Below are positions 5,765 through 30,707 of a DNA stretch of 38,295 nt, piece by piece; position 1 is the first letter of the stretch; every line of letters starts with the position of its first letter. The position numbers and the translations under genes were made by a program. The stretch comes from a virus. Below the pieces are notes generated by a model. It worked only from the letters and a program-made list of their open reading frames with translations. It had not been told where the DNA came from and did no database searches. The DNA is taken from positions 1 to 38,295 of IMG/VR virus record IMGVR_UViG_3300033153_011007; one strand, 5' to 3'.

Positions 5765-6577
5765 TTATAATTTTATCAACTGTTGAGATTTTACATTGTT
5801 ATTCTGTTTTCTGTTCACGGAATCAAATAATGTATATTGGCTTTTGTAATTTTCTATCCACTTGGTAGCGTCTTTAAAAAAATCCTTTTTTATCTCGAAT
5901 CCATAACCACGCCGCCCGGTTTTCAGTGCGGCGATCAATGTGCTTCCGCTTCCCGCTACCGGATCAATTACTACATCATTCGGATCCGTAAATAATTCTA
6001 TCAATTTAATTAGCAATTTTATCGGTTTTTGTGTTGGATGAATTTTCTCTGATTTTGTATCCCGGTCAACGTCGATGCAATTAAATACCATCTTTCTATG
6101 ATTATTAAATTTCGGTAATTTATCCCGATAAAGTAGTAATCCATACTCACAATTCCCGACAACCCGCATATTCGCTTTTAAAACTTGTGCAGAAAAATTT
6201 TTCCTGAATATTAAATTTATATAATTATTTATCCCGTATCTTTTGGCAAGTTCAATTAAATGGAATTGCTGTTCAAATTCGCAAAACACAATCATGCACG
6301 GTGCTTTCCCTCGTTGCTTTGGCTCCTTCCGCATCATCTTACTACAAAAATGCATAAACTCCGGCGGTCTGAAGTTCTTATCTGTATCAAAAAAATCTGT
6401 CCCTGCGAGATCGCTTTCGCCCTGTTTATTATCTCCGCCGACATACCACGCAGGATTTGATCCATAAGCTTTATTACCGACATTAAACGGTATATCAGCG
6501 ATTACTAATTGCGCCTTTGGAAGCCCGTAAACTTTATAATTCTGGTAATGATTGTTAAATAATTCTACTTTTTCCAT
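5765..6577 (-). CDS. DNA N4-cytosine/N6-adenine methyltransferase (beta-type order)
   Basis: This 270-aa SAM-dependent methyltransferase has the catalytic motif IV first, as DIPF (residues 28-31; the usual form is DPPY or SPPY). HPTQKP follows at 180-185, then the SAM-binding motif I DPVAGSGST (205-213). This order is that of the beta class of amino-methyltransferases. It would methylate an exocyclic amino group in phage DNA, probably to evade host restriction or mark its own DNA. No cognate restriction enzyme is nearby, so it looks solitary. The substitution in the first Pro of motif IV is seen in other phage enzymes and need not inactivate it. The target sequence cannot be predicted. Confidence 0.85.
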   Translation of the reverse strand: MEKVELFNNHYQNYKVYGLPKAQLVIADIPFNVGNKAYGSNPAWYVGGDNKQGESDLAGTDFFDTDKNFRPPEFMHFCSKMMRKEPKQRGKAPCMIVFCEFEQQFHLIELAKRYGINNYINLIFRKNFSAQVLKANMRVVGNCEYGLLLYRDKLPKFNNHRKMVFNCIDVDRDTKSEKIHPTQKPIKLLIKLIELFTDPNDVVIDPVAGSGSTLIAALKTGRRGYGFEIKKDFFKDATKWIENYKSQYTLFDSVNRKQNNNVKSQQLIKL

Positions 6578-24781: not shown

Positions 24782-25351
24782 TTAAACTACTTCTCTGGTT
24801 TTCCAAAAAGTGGGATAGCCATCGTCATCCAACTCGCTTTCATTTTTGTAGCACTCAAAAACATTTCCAACAAATCTTTGAGTAGCTGCATCAAATGTGA
24901 TTTCAAGTGAACCCATCGGCGCTGCATACCAAAAATCCACAATCCGGAGGGGTTCAATTGATTCCGCACCACTGACCCATTCTATAACTGTCAATTGTTT
25001 CCAGATGTCAGAGTGCCTCTGGCCAATTCTCTTTGAACCACACATGCGCGTAACTGCGCCTGATGAATTTGTCTCAATTGTAATTCCCGGGAAAACAGCC
25101 GCCATACGTTCTGCAGTCGGACGTGCAAATGATATTTCTACCTGACATGTGTGAGATGTTTCAGCCTTGTCTGCTGCACCTGTTCCCTGCTGAGATTCAA
25201 CCAGGTCTGTATATTCAGTAGTGTCTCGGACTATAACTGATTGAAATGTTCCAAGGTCAAGATTGTCGCCTCCAGATGCTGTATCCCAGTCAGCTGAAGC
25301 CGGACCAATTGCTAAATTAGCGCCGCCAAAAAAAGTGCTTGTATCTGCCAT
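24782..25351 (-). CDS. Major tail tube protein
   Basis: This 189-aa protein has a beta-rich sequence with the polarity of siphophage tube proteins (TFFGGANLAIGPASADW at the N-terminus, LRIVDFWYAAPMGSLEITFDA in the C-terminal half). It is followed by the G/GT chaperones and tape measure, the standard order. Its ATG overlaps the stop of the 191-aa cassette gene as TAATG, so translation is coupled to a non-structural gene, which is unusual for such a highly expressed protein. A strong promoter lies about 650 bp upstream, at 26005-25977. Confidence 0.7.
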   Translation of the reverse strand: MADTSTFFGGANLAIGPASADWDTASGGDNLDLGTFQSVIVRDTTEYTDLVESQQGTGAADKAETSHTCQVEISFARPTAERMAAVFPGITIETNSSGAVTRMCGSKRIGQRHSDIWKQLTVIEWVSGAESIEPLRIVDFWYAAPMGSLEITFDAATQRFVGNVFECYKNESELDDDGYPTFWKTREVV

Positions 25352-25926
25352 TATTTTAAAACCTCATTGATATTTTGTTTTTTAAAAACTTCTACCCGGC
25401 TATCCGGGTTTAAATTTATTACCCTCTCAGATAACGGATAATTTTTGAATGGATAAAAGAATTTTAATTGATTATCCAATTCTCTTTTTGTTGGTCCCGG
25501 TTCATTAAAAAAATAATTACCATATAAATCAAGTCCTAATATATAAACTCGTTTTGCATCGGCAACAAGTGCCGCACTGACGGCTACTGAAAGAGAGCTG
25601 CAAAATCCATATAATTTCGTAAACGAATTCTTGTTAGGACTAGGAATATTTCGTTTATCTACCTTAACCTGAAAATGTTTTTTAGGTGCCCCTGCAAAAT
25701 TAGACGTAATTACCGGACATTCCGGATTTATATCTAAAAAAAATTTCGATAATTTTCTATCTACATAAACAGCTAAATCTGGCTTAACATATAAAATCGC
25801 CCTGTTAACTGCAATTGTTTTATATTTGTCTAATCGGCTAAAATCAAATCCTTTTAGCGAGGGGCCCGAGCCAATAACAAAAACTTCATCATCTTTAAAA
25901 AAATTTTTTAGAAAATTTGCTGCCAT
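25351..25926 (-). CDS. GSGPSL-type transferase-like protein, copy 2 (DUF115/GT42-like)
   Basis: This 191-aa protein starts with a Rossmann-like strand and nucleotide-binding loop, VFVIGSGPSLKGFDF (15-29, GSGPSL at 19-24). A later block, SLSVAVSAALVADAKRVYILGLDLYG, has the form of the second half of the site in DUF115/MptE-like proteins and Cst-type sialyltransferases. These act on nucleotide-activated sugars or pterins, so a glycosyltransferase-type role is likely but the donor is unknown. It is related to the gene at 29557-30240 (GSGPSLIGFDY). No Shine-Dalgarno site precedes its ATG; a hairpin and a promoter do. It is the last gene of the cassette. Confidence 0.6.
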   Translation of the reverse strand: MAANFLKNFFKDDEVFVIGSGPSLKGFDFSRLDKYKTIAVNRAILYVKPDLAVYVDRKLSKFFLDINPECPVITSNFAGAPKKHFQVKVDKRNIPSPNKNSFTKLYGFCSSLSVAVSAALVADAKRVYILGLDLYGNYFFNEPGPTKRELDNQLKFFYPFKNYPLSERVINLNPDSRVEVFKKQNINEVLK

Positions 25927-25934
25927 AAATTAGT

Positions 25935-25968
25935 GAGTCCCGGACCCCGGAACAACGATCCGGGACTC
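25935..25968. repeat. 10-bp perfect GC-rich hairpin in the 5' leader of the 191-aa gene
   Basis: GAGTCCCGGA (25935-25944) and TCCGGGACTC (25959-25968) form a perfect 10-bp stem with a 14-nt loop. On the minus strand a T run precedes it and none follows, so it is not a leftward terminator. It would sit at the very 5' end of the mRNA from the promoter at 26005-25977 and finish 8 nt before the ATG, where a ribosome site would normally be. Confidence 0.8.
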
Positions 25969-25976
25969 AAAAATAC

Positions 25977-26005
25977 ATTATATATTTTATACATATAATA
26001 GTCAA
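25977..26005 (-). promoter_or_regulatory. Strong internal sigma70-like promoter for the tail genes
   Basis: TTGACT (26005-26000), a 17-nt spacer and a perfect TATAAT (25982-25977) lie just after the sulfotransferase stop codon. Transcription should begin near 25970, directly in front of the 10-bp hairpin. It would supply the 191-aa gene, tail tube and the tail operon separately from the head genes. Confidence 0.75.
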
Positions 26006-26006
26006 G

Positions 26007-26633
26007 TTAATATTTATCAATATTTTGCTCTTGTAAAAACTCTCTTAATTTTAAAATTTCATCTTTATTTAGATATTTTCTATAATTTCCAGGCTCAGGA
26101 TTATTTGATATATGATTTGCAGTATACGGAGTCGGATTTCCCGGTTTTAATTTATCGGTATATTTTTTAACATTCTGATAATTTTCTCTTTCAGCCAATT
26201 CTAGGCGATATGGATAATCAAGATTTAAAAATTTAATAATCGCATCAATAGCTTTTATTTCCTGTCCAAAAAAGTGCTCATATTTTAAAATTAATGTGTT
26301 TTCACCTAATTTAAATCCTTGATCCCTCAAAATGATTTGCTTAACTTCTTCCATGTAATCAGGAAGATTTACCCGGCATTTTTTTAAACTCGATAAAATA
26401 TCAAAAGGATTTCTAATAGTATGAATTATTTTAAAGCTTTCTCCATCCGGAAAAAAATCATGACTCTTAAAGATTCCAGGTAAATTAAAATCATAGTTTT
26501 GTAATTCAGAATTTAATTTTATTCCTTGATTAAATTGCGGGAAATTGTGTATAAAAATTTCTATAGCGGAAATATAAATAAATGTTGATCCAGTTCTGTA
26601 TCCTCCGGAAACTATCGCACATGATTGATTCAT
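26007..26633 (-). CDS. Sulfotransferase (PAPS-dependent type)
   Basis: From ATG 26633 the protein has 208 aa. The 5'-phosphosulfate loop GGYRTGSTF (residues 10-18) and the 3'-phosphate motif with Arg and Ser, HTIRNPFDILSS (71-82), are the two PAPS-binding signatures of the sulfotransferase family. It would transfer sulfate from PAPS to a hydroxyl on a sugar or other acceptor. I choose ATG 26633, which overlaps the stop of the methyltransferase as ATGA, over TTG 26663. PAPS must come from the host. A sulfotransferase inside a virion operon is uncommon. Confidence 0.8.
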   Translation of the reverse strand: MNQSCAIVSGGYRTGSTFIYISAIEIFIHNFPQFNQGIKLNSELQNYDFNLPGIFKSHDFFPDGESFKIIHTIRNPFDILSSLKKCRVNLPDYMEEVKQIILRDQGFKLGENTLILKYEHFFGQEIKAIDAIIKFLNLDYPYRLELAERENYQNVKKYTDKLKPGNPTPYTANHISNNPEPGNYRKYLNKDEILKLREFLQEQNIDKY

Positions 26634-27133
26634 TTCTTTATTCCCGTAATTATAAATGACCAATAAAAATCCCGCCCACTGTATAAAATATCTCTAAAAT
26701 TTAATGTCTCCAAACAATTCTTTAAATCATCCGGATAAAATAAATGCCGATGTTTTCTGCAATTTTCCGGACGCCAATATTCCATATCCGGATGCGGTAA
26801 ATATAAAAATAATCTACCGTTTATTTTTAATGAATCTCTCCAATGTTCCAGCGCTATAATATAATCTTCTAAATGTTCAAGACAATGAGATGAAAAAATA
26901 TAATCCCAGCCTCCTCTATTTTGTTGATTAATTTGCGGTAAATTAAATGCATTAAATTTATCATCCTTATATAATTTATTTATAATTATTGCACCAGGTA
27001 AATGACATTCTTTTAGACCACCGATATCCAAACCTTCCCCATCACAAAAATGCTCTGCAAATGGAAATATAAACTTAGCCGCATTTCCATTTTTTATATA
27101 CTCTGGATATATTTTTCCTTTATATTCAAACAT
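26630..27133 (-). CDS. SAM-dependent methyltransferase (type 11-like)
   Basis: This 167-aa class I methyltransferase has motif I GEGLDIGG (32-39) and the post-motif DYIFSSHCLEHLED (77-90), the usual EHL signature of small-molecule and glycan methyltransferases. Later, RLFLYLPHPD gives the beta-strand 5 region. It is shorter than many relatives but has all core elements. It overlaps the TylF-like gene upstream by 8 nt and the sulfotransferase by 4 nt, so the three are translated together. A sugar O- or N-methylation is a reasonable guess. Confidence 0.75.
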   Translation of the reverse strand: MFEYKGKIYPEYIKNGNAAKFIFPFAEHFCDGEGLDIGGLKECHLPGAIIINKLYKDDKFNAFNLPQINQQNRGGWDYIFSSHCLEHLEDYIIALEHWRDSLKINGRLFLYLPHPDMEYWRPENCRKHRHLFYPDDLKNCLETLNFRDILYSGRDFYWSFIITGIKK

Positions 27134-27782
27134 TTTTTAACCAATAATCGTCTGATTTAATAACAACTGCCTGGCCCCCTGTTAAAATACTCGGCGTTTC
27201 ATATTTGTCTGCAAAATATTCATTAACGGCTTGGCGGGCTCCGGGAGTATCCTCATACCCATAATCATCAAAAATAATTATGCCCCCAGGAACAAGCCGA
27301 GGAAAAAATACCTCGCATATTGCTTTTGTACTTGGATAAACATCAGCATCGGCATGAACAAAACAAAACTTTTTATTTTGTAAATCTAGTAAGTGAAATG
27401 AATTCGGAAACCAGCCTTTTATAATTTCTACATTTTTACAGCTTGATAAAACTTCCCTTGCAGTTTTTTCAAGTCCGTCATGGTCAAATGCATCTTTAAA
27501 ATGAGGTCTGTCAAATTTCTTATCAATTCTTTTTATTCCCTCAAAACTATCAAACGTATAGAATTTTTTTTCGGGTGCTGCCTCTGTTATTATTCTAGCA
27601 GTTCCACCTGCATATGTCCCAACCTCCGCATATGCACCCTTTAATTGAGATGCATATTTCGCAAAATAAAAAAGATTTCTGCTTTTAAATTCACCTGCCA
27701 CAACTGCAAATCCTGAAGAGCGAAGTAATGTTTCAGTATTATTATAAATTTCTTCAAATTCCAAATTGTTTACCTCTTTCAA
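27126..27782 (-). CDS. TylF/MycF-like O-methyltransferase
   Basis: This 218-aa protein starts at TTG 27782, with GGAAAAG about 9 nt upstream. It has the SAM-binding motif YAEVGTYAGGTA (51-62) and the metal-binding acidic residues DAD (145-147) and DDY (172-174), typical of the TylF/MycF family. Known members methylate sugar hydroxyls, as in macrolide sugars, and relatives occur in O-antigen and glycan loci. It overlaps the GT-B-like gene upstream by 29 nt. Confidence 0.75.
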   Translation of the reverse strand: MKEVNNLEFEEIYNNTETLLRSSGFAVVAGEFKSRNLFYFAKYASQLKGAYAEVGTYAGGTARIITEAAPEKKFYTFDSFEGIKRIDKKFDRPHFKDAFDHDGLEKTAREVLSSCKNVEIIKGWFPNSFHLLDLQNKKFCFVHADADVYPSTKAICEVFFPRLVPGGIIIFDDYGYEDTPGARQAVNEYFADKYETPSILTGGQAVVIKSDDYWLKNV

Positions 27783-28485
27783 TTATATTGACTTTTCCAA
27801 AAGGATCGTAGATAGGTAGCCATTTTTTATAAATTGAATTAATTGTTTTTATTTGAATTTTTTTAACAGCCTCACATCTACAGGCCCAAGCCGCAAGAGC
27901 AGAATCTACACCACAGAATACGGGACTATTTTGAATTGCTGACATTGCCTGAATCAATGTAGTTCTGCCTATTCCAACAAAAAATGCATCTGGATAAAAT
28001 TTTAAAATATTTTCTATATCCTTATCAGTTAAATTCCTGCCCTGCCGTACAAGTCTGTCGTCTGCCTCCGATTCGGCATCGACAATACAATTATAACTCC
28101 TGCCTAGAAAATCAAAAAGAGATTCATTATATTTCCTATCGCCCGATAAAATTTTTGGATAAATATTATCGCCTGACAAATCTAAACAATCTCTTAAATA
28201 ATTAAATCTATCCGGATGCCATCGCGTTATTTTAAAAACGCTATCAATATTAAAAAAAGCGTATGTATTAAAACTTCTTATTTCATACGGTGTAAATGGA
28301 ATTGTAATTGATAGACTTTTCCAGATAGGATGTTTGCGAATTAAAATTTTTATACTTTCGGCTGCCCGTGTAAATAAATAAAATCCTGCAATTGATTTTT
28401 TTTCGTCATTTGTTAAAAATGACTCTATAGAAATAAAGTCCCCCAGTCCCCCGGATATGAACGCGTATTTTTTTATTTTTTCCAT
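27754..28485 (-). CDS. GT-B-like glycosyltransferase-related protein, copy B
   Basis: This 243-aa protein begins with AFISGGLGDFISIESFL, a GGLGD loop like the nucleotide-sugar or acceptor loop of GT9-type (heptosyltransferase-like) enzymes. Near the end, FFVGIGRTTLIQAMSAI and FCGVDSALAAWACRC look like the C-terminal sugar-binding half. It is shorter than canonical GT9 enzymes (about 320-350 aa). It overlaps its upstream neighbour by 13 nt. The substrate is unknown. Confidence 0.55.
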   Translation of the reverse strand: MEKIKKYAFISGGLGDFISIESFLTNDEKKSIAGFYLFTRAAESIKILIRKHPIWKSLSITIPFTPYEIRSFNTYAFFNIDSVFKITRWHPDRFNYLRDCLDLSGDNIYPKILSGDRKYNESLFDFLGRSYNCIVDAESEADDRLVRQGRNLTDKDIENILKFYPDAFFVGIGRTTLIQAMSAIQNSPVFCGVDSALAAWACRCEAVKKIQIKTINSIYKKWLPIYDPFGKVNIIERGKQFGI

Positions 28486-29225
28486 TTGTAATTTTTACTA
28501 AATAATTGATTTAATTTTTCTGGTCGAATATATGGAAATCTATTATTTGCCGGATAAAATATCCTGTGTCTTCTATTGAATGCCTGAGCCAATGGAACCA
28601 AATGTCCAGCCTGAGTTAAAATAACGCTCGAATGCTTAACTAGATTTATATAGTCCTCAATATTATCAATCCTATCAACCAAATCCAAATCAATATTTTT
28701 TAATCGGTGTGAAAATTTCTCATTCTGTCCAACAGAAATTATAAATAATGATTTTCGATAAAAATCTACATATTCTTGCATAAACTTTGGATCGGGATCC
28801 ACGCTTTGTTTATTTATGTTTTTATGCATATGGGCGGCGCACGGCTCTTTGACAATCAGATAATGTCTTTTTATTTTTGATAAAACATTCTCAGAAAATT
28901 TATCTGTAAATTTTTTATCCCAATCAAAAATAAAATGTGGAGGATTCGGCAATTTTGCAGAAATTACAAGGTCTTCATACTGAGTAGTTTTTAAAAATCG
29001 CCTCTGTCTATAATGAATTTTTAAAACAAGCGAATTAATTGGTGCTGCATCTAATAAATTACAATATTTTTTAAGCGGTTCAAATATTATTTTATGCGGG
29101 TTTCTATAGATATAAATTCCATAATTCTTATATCGTGTAATTGCTAATTCTTTTAAAATTGGATAGCAATAAACAGCATCGCCCAGCCCTTGCGGGATTT
29201 CTATTATAATGTTCCGGTCATCCAT
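28473..29225 (-). CDS. GT-B-like glycosyltransferase-related protein, copy A (GT9-like)
   Basis: This 250-aa protein carries IEIPQGLGDAVYCYPIL (8-24), close to the GLGD-x3-x-P start of ADP-heptose-type glycosyltransferases. Near residues 195-215, HSSVILTQAGHLVPLAQAF matches their donor-site region (SxxxxxxxxGxxHLAxA style). It probably uses an activated sugar. At 250 aa it is a short version of the fold. It is one of two such genes in tandem in the cassette. Confidence 0.6.
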   Translation of the reverse strand: MDDRNIIIEIPQGLGDAVYCYPILKELAITRYKNYGIYIYRNPHKIIFEPLKKYCNLLDAAPINSLVLKIHYRQRRFLKTTQYEDLVISAKLPNPPHFIFDWDKKFTDKFSENVLSKIKRHYLIVKEPCAAHMHKNINKQSVDPDPKFMQEYVDFYRKSLFIISVGQNEKFSHRLKNIDLDLVDRIDNIEDYINLVKHSSVILTQAGHLVPLAQAFNRRHRIFYPANNRFPYIRPEKLNQLFSKNYKWKK

Positions 29226-29234
29226 AATTAATAA

Positions 29235-29501
29235 TTATATAATTGGTTTTTTTTCAGGACCATGAATGGACTCTTCTTTAAAATCCGGTAATGGCATAAC
29301 TGGTTTATTATTCAATATTTCAAGTCTCTGCATATCCATCCAACAGCTTTCTTCTTGTGCCTGGCCTTCTTTTGATAGCGGAGTAATTAAGCCTTGCACA
29401 CAGCCATATAAATCAAATGCGACGGATGTTATAATTCCTTCAAATCTTGTTACTTTGTCCCTAACTTTTAAACCTAAAAAATTTAAATATGTATCTACCA
29501 T
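29235..29501 (-). CDS. Small conserved phage protein (88 aa)
   Basis: I use ATG at 29501, with AAGGAG 7 nt upstream, and reject an upstream TTG at 29564. The sequence VDTYLNFLGLKVRDKVTRFEG, split here as VDTYLNFLGL and VRDKVTRFEG, is familiar from small phage proteins of unknown function that sit beside structural genes and are beta-rich with a conserved SVAFDLYGC block. It has no enzyme motif. Its presence inside the sugar cassette suggests the cassette grew around an existing phage gene. A TTTGATA/TATCAAA inverted repeat lies just upstream (29535-29550). Confidence 0.6.
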   Translation of the reverse strand: MVDTYLNFLGLKVRDKVTRFEGIITSVAFDLYGCVQGLITPLSKEGQAQEESCWMDMQRLEILNNKPVMPLPDFKEESIHGPEKKPII

Positions 29502-29556
29502 TTTATACTCCTTGATATTATTTTCATAACCAACTTTGATATTTATCAAAATAATA

Positions 29557-30240
29557 TCAAGCAAAAAACTTTAAATATTTATCAGGAATTACAGATTTTT
29601 TAAAATACGGAATCGCAGAAAATGGCGACATATTGAATATTTTTTCCGATGGAAACACTTCAAAAAACGAAATTATACTTTTAAATGTTTCTGCAATATT
29701 CGGAGTTTCGCGGGTATGATTGAATTTTCCAGATGTCGAATGTGCCCAGGTTTCCCTATCGCCATCTATTTCCCCGGGGAATTTATTATATTCTGCAATT
29801 ATTTTTGCCTGTTCTAAATTAAAAAATTTGTGGTCAAAACCATAAAGGAAAATTTTATCAGCACCGCCCTGTAGTGCTATACAAATAGCAGATAATCCTG
29901 AGTTTTTATTTCTCCGCGGATAAACACCGTCCTCCGGATTCATGCTGAATTCCTTTGCCATATTAAAACCAATTGTCGGTTTCGGAATGCAATCAAAACG
30001 TGACAATGTAATCTGATTAAAAACATAGGGATCTTCTTTATAAAATTCCTTATCAATAAAAACTGTAAACTCAGAACTAATCAGTTTATAAGAATGATTT
30101 ATCGTAATAACTTTTTTATTTCTTAATTTTGAATAATCAAATCCAATCAGAGAAGGGCCTGACCCTACAATATGAACATCACTATTTTTAAATCGGTCTT
30201 TTATAAAATCAGGATATTCTGAATTAGTTTCAAATCGCAT
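29557..30240 (-). CDS. GSGPSL-type transferase-like protein, copy 1 (DUF115/GT42-like)
   Basis: This 227-aa protein has VHIVGSGPSLIGFDYSKL (GSGPSL at 26-31) and NSGLSAICIALQGGADKIFLYGFD near 112-135, the same two-part signature as the 191-aa gene at 25351-25926. It resembles DUF115/MptE-like and Cst-type sialyltransferase folds. The middle is different and longer, so they are diverged paralogues rather than a recent duplication. Its ATG overlaps the stop of the tail terminator gene (TGATG), so it is tied to the structural operon. Confidence 0.6.
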   Translation of the reverse strand: MRFETNSEYPDFIKDRFKNSDVHIVGSGPSLIGFDYSKLRNKKVITINHSYKLISSEFTVFIDKEFYKEDPYVFNQITLSRFDCIPKPTIGFNMAKEFSMNPEDGVYPRRNKNSGLSAICIALQGGADKIFLYGFDHKFFNLEQAKIIAEYNKFPGEIDGDRETWAHSTSGKFNHTRETPNIAETFKSIISFFEVFPSEKIFNMSPFSAIPYFKKSVIPDKYLKFFA

Positions 30241-30707
30241 CAGATAAGACTTTCAAAATAATTTGCATTAAATTTTATAGTCGCAACAGCAATTAAATAT
30301 CCTGAATCTTCAGCACCTACTACATTAATATTTGTTCCAGTGTAAATATTTTTAAAAATTAAACCACCGAATGATTGGCGAAAACCGCCTAATGTATTTT
30401 CAATAATTGCACATGCGGCATCGACACGGTTTATAATAGGCAATTCACTTGACCCTGGCTGCTCATGTTCTTCATCGCCTGCAACAAACATAATAATTTC
30501 AATTATTTGATTCCTGTTATTATTTGCATCATCATCCGTCAACTCAGATGAATCTTCAGGAGTAAATACAGAAATAACAGGATATTGCATTCCGTCTTCA
30601 GCTTTCGGATGCAAGTATCTTGCATTATAAATAGTTGCTTTTGCGCTGAATGCTGATTTAAGTTGTTCTACAACATAATCCCTAATATCTTTTCTTATAT
30701 TTGCCAT
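30240..30707 (-). CDS. Tail terminator-like protein (gpU-like)
   Basis: This 155-aa alpha/beta protein starts MANIRKDIRDYVVEQLKSAF and has a central ISVFTPEDSSELTDDD, then EIIMFVAGDE, the type of layout found in tail terminator proteins. It lies right after the head-tail joiner (spacing of one base). In lambda-type order a gpZ-like gene would come before it; none is present. It should cap the tail tube and join it to the head. Confidence 0.55.
   Translation of the reverse strand: MANIRKDIRDYVVEQLKSAFSAKATIYNARYLHPKAEDGMQYPVISVFTPEDSSELTDDDANNNRNQIIEIIMFVAGDEEHEQPGSSELPIINRVDAACAIIENTLGGFRQSFGGLIFKNIYTGTNINVVGAEDSGYLIAVATIKFNANYFESLI

Follow-up and report, generated by a model that had tools for sequence, protein, structure and literature searches.

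The virus record IMGVR_UViG_3300033153_011007 of IMG/VR, analyzed whole (38,295 bases, hereafter the window) and without a host genome, represents a siphovirus-like phage in which an island of eight co-directional minus-strand genes (25351-30240) parts the tail-terminator gene from the tail-tube gene. We consider it likely that this island is a late-expressed module for glycosylation of the virion. For five of the eight genes, namely those for two GSGPSL proteins (GSG1 and GSG2), two methyltransferases and a sulfotransferase, transfer of sugar, methyl and sulfate groups is supported by sequence profiles, motifs or a comparison of folds. In addition to these class assignments, the computed support consists in the tight co-directional packing of the genes and in the conservation of a GSG gene at this site among relatives that exchange the other enzymes. 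Since a GSG gene occupies this same site in five independent contigs, the island appears to be more than a chance assembly. The genes of the island and of its two edges are the following:

30240-30707, minus strand: tail terminator, upstream edge of the island (phrog_37, E 5e-4; phrog_4204, E 4e-3; both weak)
29557-30240, minus strand: GSG1, GT42/Maf_flag10 (PF01973-like) glycosyltransferase (phrog_4603, 6.7e-13; profile; AlphaFold/Foldseek)
29235-29564, minus strand: small phage protein, phrog_37639 (2.6e-19)
28473-29225, minus strand: putative GT-B (GT9-like) glycosyltransferase (reading of the sequence; GLGD N-terminal motif)
27754-28485, minus strand: putative second GT-B-like protein (reading of the sequence)
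27126-27782, minus strand: TylF/MycF-type sugar O-methyltransferase (PF05711, 5.9e-14)
26630-27133, minus strand: class I S-adenosylmethionine (SAM) methyltransferase (PF13489, Methyltransf_23, 5.3e-11, above the cut-off)
26007-26663, minus strand: sulfotransferase dependent on 3'-phosphoadenosine 5'-phosphosulfate (PAPS) (PAPS-site motifs, family profile, fold match; Sulfotransfer_1 alone 0.0015)
25351-25926, minus strand: GSG2, second GT42/Maf-like protein (MptE-like, 8.6e-5; phrog_4603, 6.3e-8)
24782-25351, minus strand: tail tube, downstream edge of the island and candidate acceptor (phrog_2175, E 2e-4)

The terminator is homologous to the terminators of L097 (1.8e-16), L177, L098, L096 and L179 (L-numbers denote loci and contigs gathered in the scans of this analysis), and the tail tube is 51, 42, 43 and 33% identical to the tube proteins of L096, L098, L177 and L097, respectively. 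The original prediction, made from the sequence alone, had placed eight genes between terminator and tube, coupled to tail genes on either side. The open reading frames (ORFs) and the homology of the edges to PHROGs and relatives bear this out, the coupling being a 1-nt overlap at each end, of GSG1 with the terminator stop and of GSG2 with the tube start. The overlaps of 4-29 nt given there hold in part: between the longest ORFs, the junctions are overlaps of 1, 8, 13, 29, 8, 34 and 1 nt, that is, 1-34 nt, and gaps of 9 and 80 nt; a 4-nt overlap results if the sulfotransferase starts at an internal ATG ten codons in.

Enzymes of the island

GSG1 and GSG2 are 30% identical to each other and belong to one PF01973-like family, phrog_4603, which is annotated as alpha-2,3-sialyltransferase. 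GSG1 alone matches PF01973 of Pfam ('MptE-like') below the cut-off (0.0013). A profile of 52 GSG members matched, in the Protein Data Bank (PDB), Campylobacter CstII, with CstI, at 1.8e-8, a P. multocida sialyltransferase at 2.7e-4 and Maf at 0.0036; MptE (0.0025) came far behind CstII. The AlphaFold model of GSG1 (pLDDT 88.7, pTM 0.88) was matched by Foldseek to CstII (prob 0.99), to the Maf flagellin glycosyltransferase 5mu5 (prob 1.00) and also to eukaryotic sialyltransferases. A histidine is present within residues 160-182 in 48 of 50 GSG homologues, GSG1 included, in a column that shifts in the alignment (compare His188 of CstII, the general base that precedes the C-terminal helix). Thus, the two transferase-like genes of the original prediction turn out to represent a single GT42/Maf-type family. 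Maf enzymes O-glycosylate serine and threonine of flagellin with nonulosonic acids and accept the cytidine monophosphate (CMP)-activated forms of 3-deoxy-D-manno-octulosonic acid (Kdo) and N-acetylneuraminic acid (Neu5Ac), and the resemblance of the Maf PF01973 domain to Cst-II that is stated in the same report agrees with the results for GSG1 (PMC11339370).

The name of PF01973, to which almost all Pfam matches of GSG proteins point, albeit below the curated cut-off, might suggest that these proteins are MptE-like pterin pyrophosphokinases, and the two DNA methyltransferases elsewhere in the window might hint that they act on DNA or on small molecules and not on glycans. Such functions appear very improbable: CstII outranks MptE in the profile search, the fold search is led by CstII and Maf, and the neighbors of GSG genes are glycan enzymes. 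Given the outcome of the profile and fold searches, the pyrophosphokinase and DNA-modification readings were rejected as the main explanation.

When 50 GSG proteins were placed in a tree, the genes found at the terminator/tube site, together with GSG2, L100, L099 and L142, formed a ten-member group (support 97/97), which alone does not establish one origin of the site genes. GSG2 pairs there with the L100 protein, to which it is 35% identical, and not with GSG1; GSG2 is therefore not a recent copy of GSG1, and a recent duplication was rejected.

The sulfotransferase taken alone stays below the gathering cut-off of Sulfotransfer_1. It contains both PAPS-site motifs, the 5'-phosphosulfate loop (YRTGST) and the 3'-phosphate motif (RNPFDILSS), and R23, G25, R84 and S92 are invariant or near-invariant across 23 phage proteins. 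The family profile (A10) matched tyrosylprotein sulfotransferases (TPSTs) in PDB at 5.6e-13, and the top Foldseek matches of the model, which is of medium confidence (pLDDT 67), are sulfotransferase-fold proteins, mostly cytosolic sulfotransferases (SULTs) and TPSTs, plus retinol dehydratase, which has the same fold. Because TPSTs and SULTs are the nearest structures, the sulfate acceptor may be tyrosine rather than a glycan. An iterated profile detected sulfotransferase-like proteins in 26 of 128 GSG loci vs 0 of 80 loci selected by the major capsid protein (MCP); the Fisher p of 1.4e-6 overstates this difference, since the loci are partly near-copies or kin and the two sets were chosen differently and are of unequal total length. 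Some of these matches lie outside virion operons. The direction of the result is clear, and 21 of 23 representative sulfotransferases match Sulfotransfer_3 of Pfam at E <= 0.01. The sulfotransferase of the island itself had no tblastn match in 50,697 phage records and two marginal matches in 297 genomes of one phylum, and when IMG/VR was scanned with an alignment of three sulfotransferase sequences, the single contig obtained was a known one.

The TylF-type protein scores 52.4 bits with PF05711 (curated cut-off 23); its nearest PDB relatives are MycF, NovP and CalS11, O-methyltransferases acting on sugars, and its phage relatives include Firecracker gp33 and Che8 gp108. The 28473-29225 protein gave no match in Pfam, PHROGs, NCBIfam, PDB sequences or phages, none by tblastn in the 50,697 phage records, and one marginal match in 198 genomes of one phylum. 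The 27754-28485 protein gave no match in Pfam, PHROGs, NCBIfam, PDB sequences or the related loci, and the two proteins are mutually dissimilar by BLASTP. Hence, the two SAM methyltransferases, the PAPS sulfotransferase and the small phage protein that had been read from the sequence are all confirmed by families or motifs, and for the GT-B-like pair the genes are present and the class is putative. Relatives of the small protein occur in a Pseudomonas phage, Rhodobacter phages and Synechococcus phage BUCT-ZZ01, in other genomic contexts; a UDP-glucose 4-epimerase gene lies less than 2 kb from the relative in BUCT-ZZ01.

The terminator/tube site in relatives and in unrelated phages

Relatives were located by scans with GSG and tube alignments and share the virion gene order. 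The survey of related phages for the same insertion, proposed in the original prediction, found a GSG gene at the terminator/tube site in five of them (L096, L097, L098, L177 and L179) and an empty site in L013, a more distant capsid relative in which the terminator abuts the tube (both read by position and size). GSG is the single gene between terminator and tube in L096 and L097, and is accompanied in L179 by a probable glycosyltransferase without a Pfam match; in L100, GSG follows the terminator and the contig ends there. In L098 and L177, the site holds genes for GT29, GSG, NeuB, a HAD protein, a methyltransferase and a NeuA/PseF-like cytidylyltransferase, which in L098 resembles PseF, so that genes for nonulosonic-acid synthesis and GT29/GT42-like transfer are embedded in the tail module (L098:7234-11050; L177:6188-9964; 37-63% identity for the three genes compared). 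Because such genes surround GSG, L098 and L177 probably make an activated nonulosonic acid of the sialic or pseudaminic type. These cassettes have the phage lineage, the site and the GSG core in common with the island of the window but contain GT29, NeuB, HAD and NeuA/PseF genes in place of the GT-B-like, TylF and sulfotransferase genes. As the gene that is kept at the site while its neighbors vary, GSG1 is likely to be the core enzyme. An N-acetylmuramoyl-amidase-like ORF (by reading) was noticed between the capsid and head-tail genes of L013 (11864-12310).

Single-protein scans of IMG/VR with GSG1, MCP and the TylF-type protein found no close relative, and an MCP-alignment scan yielded 80 distant loci, 0 with island genes. 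No host is assigned, because in bacterial genomes the tail-tube scan gave nothing and the GSG scan two weak loci only.

The variation of the accessory genes from relative to relative, and the presence of GSG alone in L096 and L097, could be taken to mean that GSG is a core glycosyltransferase gene of the tail module whereas the other enzymes are independent morons that share no pathway. This explanation seems improbable, given that the accessory genes are nearly all glycan-related in every occupied locus and that the NeuB, HAD, methyltransferase, NeuA and GT29 genes of L098 and L177 travel together.

Unrelated phages also carry glycan islands between genes of these two kinds; there, many assignments (L123, L130, L156, L225 and L181) are based on ORF order and reading of the proteins. 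In L123, a head-tail connector/terminator-like gene is followed by GSG, a weak methyltransferase match and a probable glycosyltransferase, and then by the major tail protein; in L130, a homologue of this terminator-like gene precedes GSG, after which come another ~7 kb of genes, one of them for an FkbM methyltransferase, and then a homologue of the L123 tube. The GSG proteins of both belong to another clade of the tree than the window-site group, and the two islands appear to be independent cases. In L156, GSG lies between the head-closure and terminator genes together with genes for a sulfotransferase (match to Sulfotransfer_3 at 1.1e-15), a pair of GT2-like proteins and a methyltransferase/LicD protein. 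The last of these, in the head-tail region, is a single ORF of 602 aa (L156:11324-13132) in which a match to LicD (phosphocholine-transfer-like) is flanked by methyltransferase domains. Two GSG-like, a NeuA-like and a NeuB-like gene lie ahead of the head-tail genes in L225, and GSG follows a capsid-like gene in L181, a metagenome-assembled genome of Bacteroidales. The implied uniqueness of the combination and its place in the original prediction thus fails: in uncultured phages, sulfotransferases often lie near GSG, and glycan islands are found repeatedly at the terminator/tube site.

Among other GSG loci, PmgO of phage P1, a putative morphogenetic protein (L008:2938-3600), is a GSG homologue whose gene cluster contains an annotated glycosyltransferase. 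Phage XacN1 has two adjacent GSG homologues, ORF375 and ORF374 (L010:2950-4280); virion glycoproteins were detected in this phage and credited by the authors to other ORFs (PMC5852040). In L134 (4745-12058), GSG is followed by genes for a GT29-containing protein of 1008 aa, a radical SAM protein, a protein that reads like a UDP-sugar dehydrogenase, and a TylF-like methyltransferase.

Virion or host surface as the target

In the mechanism that we propose, GSG1 would attach, in the cytoplasm, an acidic sugar to serine or threonine of a virion protein that is abundant, the tail tube and the capsid being the most likely ones. This sugar would be an ulosonic acid activated with CMP, for example Kdo or one resembling sialic acid. 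The donor would be supplied by the host, and the Kdo of Gram-negative hosts would serve. The two GT-B-like proteins would extend the chain, the TylF-type and the second methyltransferase would add O-methyl caps, and the sulfotransferase would add sulfate from host PAPS; the particle might benefit through altered adsorption, stability or shielding. Placement of an ulosonic acid on a virion protein is suggested by the affinity of the family to CMP-ulosonic-acid transferases, its nearest relatives, and by the phages of the same lineage that probably make such sugars. Within this scheme, the biological benefit, the donor sugar and the acceptor are inferred, as are the order of the steps and the parts played by GSG2 and the GT-B-like proteins.

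The main alternative is that the island modifies the host surface, that is, lipopolysaccharide (LPS) or capsule, at a late stage of infection, so as to block, for instance, re-adsorption of progeny or superinfection; its place in the operon would then reflect timing only. GT42 and Kdo-type transferases classically act on LPS or lipooligosaccharide, GT9-like proteins are typical of the LPS core, and O-antigen-modifying phage enzymes are common; a weak NCBIfam match to the Kdo-type transferase WaaZ (0.0072) points in the same direction. We nevertheless regard this alternative as unlikely. No membrane or lipid-carrier protein was recognized among the eight island genes, and the insertion is tied to tube and terminator genes in two unrelated lineages, which favors the virion. 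The virion is favored also by the nearest phages with a related methyltransferase, those of the Firecracker and Che8 groups, whose capsid and tail-tube proteins are reported to be glycosylated (PMC11600133, PMC12363180). The original prediction had left the choice between virion and host envelope open; a glycan on one or the other is still the best available reading, with the comparative evidence leaning to the virion and with joint action of the enzymes, like the acceptor, being presumptive.

Several observations weigh against glycosylation of the virion by this island. Synthesis of the donor sugar is not recognizably encoded in the window, and the glycan acceptor is a candidate only, in an uncultured lineage. 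The position within the virion operon shows timing, not target, and other GSG loci, such as P1 pmgO, lie outside tail-completion modules. The Foldseek TM-scores for GSG1 are moderate (0.36-0.51). GSG2 has no conserved histidine near the expected position of the base and may be inactive or altered, and the GT9-like or GT-B reading of the 28473-29225 and 27754-28485 proteins comes from their sequences, with no family support.

Known systems, significance and genome setting

Glycosylation of phage virions is already known from Corndogvirus and Che8. Their gene sets (Firecracker gp33-36; Che8 gp108-110) resemble the island in that phage glycosyltransferases are combined with a TylF-type methyltransferase and, in Firecracker, in their location within the virion operon. 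The Firecracker set, however, lies between portal and protease, not terminator and tube, and its glycosyltransferases do not match the island proteins; in both phages, only the methyltransferase does, and the sets shown include neither a GSG/Maf-like core nor a sulfotransferase. Maf flagellin glycosyltransferases (PF01973, Maf_flag10) share fold and motif with GSG1 and act with CMP-ulosonic acids on serine and threonine of a helical-tube subunit (PMC11339370), whereas acceptor and donor of GSG1 are only predicted; GSG proteins are single-domain proteins of ~200-250 aa that lack the extra N- and C-terminal domains of Maf. With CstI and CstII of GT42, the GSG family has in common, besides the profile match, the motifs GxGPSL, N and SG...LxGxD, and sialic-acid biosynthesis genes are found in relatives; the differences are an identity of ~15% in the structure alignment and a histidine that is only approximately placed and is absent in GSG2. 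In P1, pmgO is clustered with an annotated glycosyltransferase among 'putative morphogenetic' genes (pmgO/pmgP/pmgQ), similarly to the island, but not between terminator and tube, and the stretch shown contains no sulfotransferase.

To our knowledge, virion glycosylation in tailed phages has been shown for few systems; it alters immune recognition and may affect adsorption. What appears to be new is the recurrence of the terminator/tube site, the core gene of Maf/GT42 type and the frequency of sulfotransferases, absence from a literature of limited scope being weak evidence: titles and abstracts on phage sulfotransferases (tail or glycan) and phage nonulosonic acids contained no description, with most subscription papers outside that scope. 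Tentatively, one could envisage a widespread and so far unrecognized phage system for protein glycosylation in which a Maf/GT42-type transferase encoded next to tail-tube or head-tail genes primes O-glycans directly on subunits of tube or capsid, and exchangeable cassettes (sulfotransferase, methyltransferases, LicD, sialic- or pseudaminic-acid synthesis) decorate them. If so, many siphophages would wear variable acidic, sulfated glycan coats, and phage tail tubes and flagellin would be two helical tubes decorated by one enzyme family. Should GSG genes be markers of such systems, a single sequence family would locate them across uncultured phages, predict acidic, sulfated coats and offer testable enzymes, including P1 pmgO in E. 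coli, a tractable laboratory model.

The late genes of the window, all on the minus strand, encode, on the head side, the small and large terminase subunits, portal, protease, lambda D-like decoration protein, lambda E-like capsid and head closure; the tail terminator, the island and the tail tube are followed by a gene in the tail-chaperone position, the tape measure (assigned from length and homology to relatives) and Dit. The G+C content of the island is 31%, compared with 39% for the head genes and 36% for the tail genes. Between the sulfotransferase and GSG2 genes, the gap of 80 nt contains a strong G+C-rich hairpin (25935-25968; GAGTCCCGGA...TCCGGGACTC) with a 13-bp stem and no T-run, which occurs once within the window; the folding z-score of the region is -5.0. 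This hairpin could be an attenuator or the mark of an insertion boundary. Two DNA-methyltransferase-like genes (1024-1599 and 5765-6577) are located distally in the genome.

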